Shown here: piece after piece, positions 52,648 to 61,638 of the stretch
How positions within the stretch are numbered: position 1 is the stretch's first letter
Layout of the letters: each line of letters begins with the position of its first letter
DNA from: Bacillota bacterium
GTDB lineage: Bacteria; Bacillota; Clostridia; Christensenellales; UBA1242
NCBI GenBank assembly: GCA_009780065.1
Contig: WRAS01000002.1
Span: 199,916 to 263,915 of the forward strand
Direction of reading: 5' to 3'
Length of the DNA stretch: 64,000 nt
Position numbers and translations under genes: made by a program
Notes under the pieces: model-generated
Databases searched by the model: none
Told to the model about the DNA's origin: nothing
The model's input: the letters and a program-made list of their open reading frames with translations, nothing else

Positions 52648-53427
52648 TTAACTTGCATCCCCATATCCCTCTAACAATAACTTGTCCGCGATAAAGCCAA
52701 TGAACTCTCCATTAGTTGGTTTGTCATTTTGGGAAAACGCCGATACATTAAAAATCTCGTTAATCTTGTGCAATCTGCCGCGATTCCAACCCACTTCGAT
52801 TGCATGACGTATTGCACGCTCCACTTTGCTACTGGTTGTGTTAAAAATCCTTGCAATCGTTGGATAAAGTTGCTTTGTAATTGCGTTAATCATGGAATTA
52901 TCACTTACAATTAATTTTACACCCTCGCGCAGGTATGAGTATCCCTTGATATGTGCGGGGATACCGATTTCAATAAACAACTTGGATAGTTTATCATCCA
53001 ATTTTTTATTGGAAATTGGCGGGAATTCTTTCATAACTTTGGCTGCTTTTGTTTTGGGCTCGACCTCACCCTTTAAAAATAAAATCTGCTTTTTCAAAGA
53101 ATTGGCTTCAAACGGTTTAATCATATAGTGATCCACACCAACGTCCACCATACGTTTTATCGCTTTATCAGAAAAGGCACTGGAAAACATTATAACGCTA
53201 ATCTCGGGTGCGTTTTCCTTTACAAATTCACAAAATGAAATACCACACATCTTTTTCATGGCAAAGTTACAAACCACAACACAGGGTTTTGTTTCCTTTA
53301 ACTTTTCCAATGCATCTTCACCATCATCTGTTGCAGCGACAACCTCGAACCTGGCATCGTCCTTAAACATAGCCTCTAGTTTCAACTTTTCCTCGAAATT
53401 GCTTTCTGCAATTAAAATTCTTGTCAA
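52648..53427 (-). CDS. spo0A: Sporulation master regulator Spo0A with degenerate receiver
   Basis: Intact DNA-binding domain FNTTSSKVERAIRHAIEVGWNRGRLHKINEIF...KPTNGEFIGFIADKL; receiver Asp position is Asn54; TTG start. Confidence 0.93.
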   Translation of the reverse strand: MTRILIAESNFEEKLKLEAMFKDDARFEVVAATDDGEDALEKLKETKPCVVVCNFAMKKMCGISFCEFVKENAPEISVIMFSSAFSDKAIKRMVDVGVDHYMIKPFEANSLKKQILFLKGEVEPKTKAAKVMKEFPPISNKKLDDKLSKLFIEIGIPAHIKGYSYLREGVKLIVSDNSMINAITKQLYPTIARIFNTTSSKVERAIRHAIEVGWNRGRLHKINEIFNVSAFSQNDKPTNGEFIGFIADKLLLEGYGDAS

Positions 53428-53656
53428 ATTGCACCCCCATTTATTCTGTATAACATTTTGCTATTCCACGAATTCTGTAAGTTTTTGTTGATTACTTAAA
53501 AAATTTGTCGATTCAAACATAAATGAAAGTTAACAAACTTTGACTATGATACACAATCAAAAACAGCCGACTAATTCCGACCTTTTACGACGACTCACAC
53601 ATATAATCTTGATTTCATAAGTTTAAACATACAGAATCATAAAAGGAGTTTTTAAC

Positions 53657-55412: not shown

Positions 55413-55667
55413 TCAAACACGAACATCCCCCACAGAGATGCTTGTAATCCTGTTTCCACTCCAATTCACGCGCCAATTACCAATTCTGCTTATACGATTC
55501 ATGGAATAATCCACGCGAAAGTTTCCAATCCGTGAAATCCGATTTGTACTCCACAACACGTTCATACTCCCGATTCGGCTAATTCTGCCCATGGAAATAA
55601 ATGGTCTGTCATGTCCCATCTCGGTAAAAAATTTTATAATTGCATCCTGTTCAACATCCCCGGTCAT
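55413..55667 (-). CDS. Small tandem-repeat protein (RISRIG repeats)
   Basis: GRISRIGSMNVLWST / NRISRIGNFRVDYSM / NRISRIGNWRVNWSG / NRITSISVGDVRV. Confidence 0.75.
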   Translation of the reverse strand: MTGDVEQDAIIKFFTEMGHDRPFISMGRISRIGSMNVLWSTNRISRIGNFRVDYSMNRISRIGNWRVNWSGNRITSISVGDVRV

Positions 55668-58575: not shown

Positions 58576-59751
58576 TTAGACACGTCTTTCCTGTTCAACA
58601 AAGTCCTTACTTACCCAACCAAACTTGTGGTTAAAGAACACATACCACCAATTCCCTTCCTCGCCTAGCAACAGTATTCTTGACCCATTCGGGATCTTGT
58701 CAATAATCACCCCATTCATAGATGGCATATTACGCATGTTCAAATTTCCGCTTTGGGTTCGCACAACACCCATACATGCCATTGTTGGTGTCGGTCCACA
58801 AACATACAGCGGTGGAGGTGGTACAGGTGGCAACGGAGGAATTATACCAATAGGCGGGGTAATTGGCGGGAACGTACCGATCGGGGGCATTACTGGTGGA
58901 ATTGGTGCAATAGGCGGCACTGGTGTAACAATTGGCGGAATTATACCAATAGGTGGTTCGGGTCTTATTGCATCGTCCTCGTTACAGATACAAATGAACT
59001 GGGCACTTGCAAAACCTTCACGCATGTTAAATCTAACCGGTACCCATCCATTTCTGGTTGGACCAATTATAATCAACTGTGTACGATCAGGCACAGAAAA
59101 AATAACATCACCATCCGGACCATTACGGATATTTAATCCGGCCCCTCCCGTACATACACGTGCCCATCTGAATCGTGTGCATTTATGCATCATTGCACTG
59201 GTTGTTCCATGTGTACATGGCTCGATATAATGACGCCCAAAATATGTAACAATACCCCGTACAATTGCCTGTGCAATGTTTTGGATATTATCGCGAATCC
59301 ATTCCGCATCAATTGGGTTATCGTGAAATGCAGTTTCTACAGAAACTGCTGGCATTTTGGTGGCTCTTAACTCTAACAGCGTCGTGTTCGGTACGGTTAC
59401 AACCCGGCTTGGATCATGATAAATCTTCTTAAACTCGGTAACCATGTTCTCTGCCAATCTCTGCCCCTCGGTACTGGTTGCAAAGAAATAATGCCTACTA
59501 CCCCGTGCTGTGCCTGCAACTGGTGCCGCGTTTGAATGAATCGCAACATAGATGTCAAACGCGCCTGCATTGGCTTCGGCTATGTACTGGGACAGTGTCA
59601 TTCCAATCCGATTACGTTGAAATGAAATTCCATTCAACCTAAGCAACGGTTCACATGCATCCGCAATCAAATTCATCAAAAATTGCTCGGACACCCCCAA
59701 CACAGATTGATTCCACGGCTGCAAAGACGGGGCAAGATAAATTCTGGCCAT
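58576..59751 (-). CDS. N-acetylmuramoyl-L-alanine amidase with SH3 domains and Pro/Ile-rich linker
   Basis: FDIYVAIHSNAAPVAGTARGSRHYFFATS...PAVSVETAFHDNP; LNIRNGP and LNMRNMP SH3. Confidence 0.88.
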   Translation of the reverse strand: MARIYLAPSLQPWNQSVLGVSEQFLMNLIADACEPLLRLNGISFQRNRIGMTLSQYIAEANAGAFDIYVAIHSNAAPVAGTARGSRHYFFATSTEGQRLAENMVTEFKKIYHDPSRVVTVPNTTLLELRATKMPAVSVETAFHDNPIDAEWIRDNIQNIAQAIVRGIVTYFGRHYIEPCTHGTTSAMMHKCTRFRWARVCTGGAGLNIRNGPDGDVIFSVPDRTQLIIIGPTRNGWVPVRFNMREGFASAQFICICNEDDAIRPEPPIGIIPPIVTPVPPIAPIPPVMPPIGTFPPITPPIGIIPPLPPVPPPPLYVCGPTPTMACMGVVRTQSGNLNMRNMPSMNGVIIDKIPNGSRILLLGEEGNWWYVFFNHKFGWVSKDFVEQERRV

Positions 59752-61281: not shown

Positions 61282-61638
61282 TCATTTGTATAGAACCTCG
61301 TACACAGTTTTTTGTATCCGTGAACGTCGTTTACCCACCTTGATAAATTCAGACAAAGTTATAATACATTCCCTGTTGGATGGTTTTTTGGAAAAGAACT
61401 CTTTCAAATCACCTTCCTGCCACCACGCACCAATTAAATCACGAATACATTTCTCCACGTTATATATGTCTGTGTCACTTTTACATGCAACCTGGTCATA
61501 TAAAATTTTGTTCAGGTGATTTACACTGGCTGGCTGTATACATGCCGTCGCAATACAACTTTTCAGGTAATAATACCCCCGCATCTTGGGGCAATTATAT
61601 TCTAATAAAAACCTGGAAACATCCTCGTTCGTAATCAT
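61282..61638 (-). CDS. Stand-alone Spo0A C-terminal-domain-like protein
   Basis: MRGYYYLKSCIATAC...LNKILYDQVA...YNVEKCIRDLIGAWWQEGDLKEFFSKKPSNRECIITLSEFI aligns by eye with Spo0A-C. Confidence 0.72.
   Translation of the reverse strand: MITNEDVSRFLLEYNCPKMRGYYYLKSCIATACIQPASVNHLNKILYDQVACKSDTDIYNVEKCIRDLIGAWWQEGDLKEFFSKKPSNRECIITLSEFIKVGKRRSRIQKTVYEVLYK

Follow-up and report, generated by a model that had tools for sequence, protein, structure and literature searches.

Endospore formation is generally regarded as being gated by the phosphorylation of Spo0A. Phosphorylation-independent forms of Spo0A are also known from the laboratory, such as the sad67 internal deletion and the free C-terminal domain. 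Studies have shown that aspartate-less or pseudo-receiver regulators, for example, ChxR, HP1043, FrzS, and GlnR, keep the receiver fold without the residues of phosphotransfer (PMC4395418, PMC12632262). A review of pseudo-receivers puts forward three candidate models, namely constitutive dimers, a shifted equilibrium of conformations, and control through synthesis or availability, and the word Spo0A is absent from its text (PMC12632262). In the other paper, Spo0A is mentioned solely for Asp-to-Glu substitutions (PMC4395418). No natural Spo0A without the acceptor Asp was reported in the literature that we searched, the coverage of which was incomplete. In this study, the spo0A gene of the window (the whole stretch of 64,000 nucleotides that was analysed) was found to encode a protein that has in common with the pseudo-receiver regulators a receiver fold without phosphotransfer residues. 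It has the same domain order, receiver fold, and DNA-recognition helix as the canonical Spo0A of Bacillus subtilis and Clostridia, with candidate 0A boxes before spoIIE and spoIIGA, but it has neither the acceptor Asp nor the second metal ligand, and no kinases were detected in its genome. The features concerned are listed below in window coordinates.

52648..53427, minus strand: spo0A, 259 aa, TTG start, pseudo-receiver (matches to TIGR02875, Response_reg, and Spo0A_C)
53083..53418, minus strand: receiver (pseudo-receiver) domain, residues 4-115 (Pfam boundaries)
53266..53268, minus strand: Asn54 codon AAC, the phospho-acceptor position, B. subtilis Asp56 (sequence and alignment)
53401..53406, minus strand: Glu8-Ser9, where the metal-binding Asp-Asp pair is expected (sequence and alignment)
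53182..53184, minus strand: Ser82, the conserved Thr/Ser switch position (alignment)
53116..53118, minus strand: Lys104, the switch lysine (alignment)
52678..52983, minus strand: Spo0A_C DNA-binding domain with the recognition helix SKVERAIRHAIE (Pfam and alignment)
53504..53512, plus strand: TTTGTCGAT, a site resembling a 0A box, upstream of spo0A and differing from TTTGTCGAA at one base
61282..61638, minus strand: stand-alone Spo0A_C protein, 118 aa, between ychF and pth (Spo0A_C 52 bits, cut-off 25)

The spo0A product scored 216 bits against TIGR02875 (cut-off 200), and Pfam recognised Response_reg at 64 bits and Spo0A_C at 128 bits, so that the domain content of a Spo0A, a receiver followed by Spo0A_C with the 0A-box recognition helix, is present. 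The initial annotation had placed the feature at 53242-53427, which lies inside spo0A and covers its first 62 codons only; the whole gene runs from 53427 to 52648. Residues were aligned to a B. subtilis Spo0A sequence that is consistent with PDB alignments, and we take Asn54, Ser82, and Lys104 to be the equivalents of its Asp56, Thr86, and Lys108, respectively. The Asn that had been noticed at the phospho-acceptor position was confirmed (codon 53268-53266, AAC), as was the replacement of the acidic pair by Glu-Ser at residues 8-9 (53406-53401). The active-site set is E-S-N-S-K, without the phosphorylatable Asp of a phospho-activated Spo0A; with a receiver that PF00072 recognises at 64 bits and Asn54 in place of the acceptor Asp, the domain classes as a pseudo-receiver. 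Judged from its sequence, the protein is a Spo0A by descent and domain content, yet not of the phospho-activated type. In an AlphaFold2 model built from four input sequences, the receiver reached a pLDDT of ~90 over most of the domain, the high mean confidence being found in the best model alone of five, and Foldseek matched the modelled receiver to the Spo0A receiver 5wq0 (TM 0.93, rmsd 1.2).

A comparison of gene order in the congeners revealed no conserved partner gene around spo0A. Elsewhere in the window, positions 55413-55667 hold an 84-aa ORF of NRISRIGNxRVxxS-type repeats with no Pfam match, and positions 58576-59751 encode an N-acetylmuramoyl-L-alanine amidase with SH3 domains and a proline-rich stretch, a close relative of which lies near spo0A in the congener G002.

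At the acceptor position, three other species of the genus (G002, G003, and G004; 49-58% identity) carry N, N, and G, respectively, and their acidic pair has Glu first and Gly or Ser second. The retention of the switch lysine, as it had been described, holds for this species (Lys104), but these three congeners differ from canonical Spo0A in having Arg at this position. A fourth congener, G001, has a 152-aa Spo0A without a receiver, and no receiver-like frame was found upstream of it. The four receiver-bearing Spo0As of the genus form one strongly supported clade in the tree. In these four species, the residue next to Asn54 (position 53) is Cys or Ser; in one congener, the D, T, and K positions are occupied by Gly, Ala, and Arg. 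Six of the ten residues that are invariant in the genus and rare in the family lie near the former active site (p = 0.01, with loop boundaries chosen by the analyst). Two of the congener genomes are termite-gut MAGs according to their isolate names (Lab288P1bin142 and Lab288P1bin95). Throughout the genus, neither the acceptor Asp nor the second metal ligand is left.

Spo0A was read in 105 genomes of the family, with Asp at the acceptor position in 82, Glu in 13 (genera g6, g19, g44, and g50), Asn or Gly in 4 (the genus of the window), and no receiver in 6. Many of the family Spo0As that keep the Asp have lost the second acidic residue. The change from Asp to Glu is recurrent and consistent within the four genera, and it also occurs outside the family (L165, L182, L194, L217, and L228). 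Receiver deletion affects one congener and three other genera of the family, the best Spo0A copy being receiver-less in G001 (L039), G007 (L040), G017 (L042), and g58 (G126, G146, and G182; L356-L358). These forms, together with a 201-aa paralogue in the window's own genome, resemble the sad67 and free C-terminal constructs; they differ from them in being natural genes, and the window protein differs in retaining its whole receiver. A further set of Spo0A_C proteins, of ~250 aa and with an N-terminal half that can barely be recognised, was seen in other genera of the family (L044, L045, L046, L047, L048, L050, L051, and L052). On a tree of 111 Spo0As, ten switches between Asp and non-Asp are required, three of which are forced by well-supported branches, and a tree of the DNA-binding domain, which is poorly resolved and has long branches, needs eight changes among four states. 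On these trees, the acceptor Asp has been lost repeatedly.

HisKA was found in 15 of 118 family genomes. Most of the kinase-less relatives in the family still have the Asp, and outside the family, 12 related Spo0As without it occur in genomes with one to five HisKA kinases. Therefore, kinase loss alone does not explain the loss of the Asp. Across 86 Spo0As, no association with kinase loss was found for the Asp (Fisher p = 1.0) or for all the active-site residues taken together (Fisher p = 0.35). Within the family, kinases were present in 13 of the 82 genomes that keep the Asp and in none of the 23 that lack the Asp or the receiver (two-sided p = 0.067, for genomes that are not independent). 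Acetyl phosphate was also discarded as the reason for keeping or losing the Asp, because most genomes possess acetate kinase whether or not they keep the Asp.

Acetate kinase served as the yardstick of evolutionary rate, with uncorrected distances and few genomes. Relative to acetate kinase, the divergence ratio of the receiver was 1.31 within the genus, compared with 1.30 for the relatives, and that of the DNA-binding domain was 0.97 and 0.37, respectively. On this scale, the Spo0A DNA-binding domain of the genus (52678-52983 and its counterparts in the congeners) is thus evolving at ~2.6 times the rate seen elsewhere in the family. Extra constraint on the receiver, drawn from a first comparison with the DNA-binding domain alone, was abandoned because acetate kinase showed that the DNA-binding domain was the fast part. 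Decay of the receiver was likewise unsupported, its relative rate being normal. Because of this normal rate, the receiver of the genus looks like a maintained pseudo-receiver. The DNA-binding domain had been called canonical; it keeps the recognition helix, but it evolves unusually fast in the genus, and the term is therefore only partly apt. The fast evolution of this domain could also mean that its targets have changed.

The genome (G000) is a draft of 1.2 Mb that is about 91.5% complete. It holds three further Spo0A_C genes, of 201 aa (C8), 118 aa (in the window), and 66 aa (C5). The C8 paralogue (L002:1255-1860) has most of its receiver deleted and keeps the receiver start, the linker, and a full Spo0A_C domain of about 119 bits. 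A gene similar to the 118-aa one also adjoins pth in G002, and the C5 gene is fragment-like. A second canonical spo0A was sought in this ~91.5% complete genome and none was found, the three other Spo0A_C genes having no recognisable receiver. Spo0A was the sole match in a Response_reg search of the genome, and HisKA had no matches in any of the five species of the genus. A HATPase_c search with E up to 10 returned four matches in the genome, namely two gyrase-B-type topoisomerases, MutL, and SpoIIAB, and a crude motif scan, the sole check that covers HATPase_c_5-type kinases, revealed nothing convincing among other GHKL ATPases. The kinase search that had been proposed thus yielded neither a histidine kinase nor a receiver besides Spo0A in a genome of which ~8.5% may be missing. 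Acetate kinase is present, and acetyl phosphate is therefore possible.

SpoIIAA, SpoIIAB, SigF, SigE, SigK, SpoIIGA, SpoIIE, and SpoIVA were identified in the genome with NCBIfam, as was a SigH-like factor; several of these sporulation matches score below the equivalog thresholds, which would be in keeping with a divergent lineage. SigG, which a regular-expression search had missed, was found with phmmer by its similarity to a B. subtilis sequence. No SASP was found in the genome, either by a regular expression or by a search with a consensus. In the initial search of 24 family genomes, SpoIVA was present in 23. The recognition helix of the window protein is that of Spo0A, and the exact TTTGTCGAA occurs upstream of spoIIE and spoIIGA, that is, at two of the seven sporulation promoters tested (binomial 6e-4, for a short consensus and few promoters). 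The four receiver-bearing species of the genus all have a candidate 0A box, with no more than one mismatch, ahead of spo0A; one-mismatch boxes are individually weak in single upstream regions (shuffle p about 0.07-0.09). The seven-base core of the 0A box was found upstream of sigG, and no good 0A box was found in the region upstream of spoIIAA.

Because the phosphorylation site has been lost and no enzymes to use it were found, we believe that Spo0A is controlled by other means in this lineage. The sequences make it probable, at roughly 70%, that its main Spo0A is a transcription factor independent of Asp phosphorylation, which would be set by its amount, by binding at the remodelled pocket, or by both. 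We propose that the pseudo-receiver keeps Spo0A in a form competent for DNA binding without phosphate. The activity would then be set by the quantity of Spo0A through autoregulation at its own 0A box, perhaps together with a SigH-like factor, and a further input would probably come from binding at the remodelled former active site. By analogy with the pseudo-receivers described above, constitutive dimers, an altered conformational balance, and control by synthesis may be considered as candidate models. The initial annotation had predicted independence from the phosphorelay or regulation in another way, and the sequences support this prediction; neither a second canonical spo0A in the ~91.5% complete genome nor an assembly error at Asn54, the two findings that it had named against itself, was encountered.

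An error of assembly or base calling at Asn54 is hardly credible: the genome is indeed a draft assembly of 18 contigs, but independent congeners carry N, N, and G there and share the surrounding changes, and the loss is genus-wide. It is improbable, if less so, that the protein is still phosphorylated through a neighbouring residue or an unrecognised donor. In CheY D57N, an adjacent Ser can take the phosphate, and here residue 53 is Cys or Ser in four species and acetate kinase could supply acetyl phosphate; against this stand the missing second metal ligand, the Gly, Ala, and Arg that occupy the D, T, and K positions of one congener, and the failure to find a kinase in the genome.

Slightly more weight, within what we still consider unlikely, can be given to a Spo0A that is decaying in a lineage that is losing sporulation. 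The small genome, the lost active site, the fast DNA-binding domain, and the lack of any SASP match to the consensus would agree with decay, whereas the reading frames that remain intact in four species with 49-58% identity, the normal relative rate of the receiver, the retained sigma cascade and SpoIVA, and the candidate 0A boxes argue against it. The strongest competitor, still unlikely at about one chance in eight, is that sporulation is in truth activated by the receiver-less C8 paralogue, with the Asn54 protein as its partner or modulator. C8 keeps the receiver start and a full Spo0A_C, like the receiver-less best copies elsewhere in the family. However, no second copy like C8 was found in G002, G003, and G004 at E 1e-15, while the Asn54 type is common to the genus; the C8 gene has no 0A-like core upstream, and its sequence in and around the recognition helix is more altered than that of the Asn54 protein.

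Returning to a main Spo0A that works without Asp phosphorylation, a broader version is possible, and we offer it tentatively: this family of Clostridia with ~1-Mb genomes, in most members of which no histidine kinase was detected, may have largely dismantled the phosphorylation input to sporulation, with Spo0A made into an unphosphorylated regulator by several routes (Asn or Gly, Glu, and receiver deletion), and the repurposed pocket of this genus may sense a signal other than phosphate. A lineage with the sigma cascade but without the phosphosite or a detected kinase would be a natural experiment on the purpose of the phosphate and on how a master regulator gets rewired once its signalling partners vanish.
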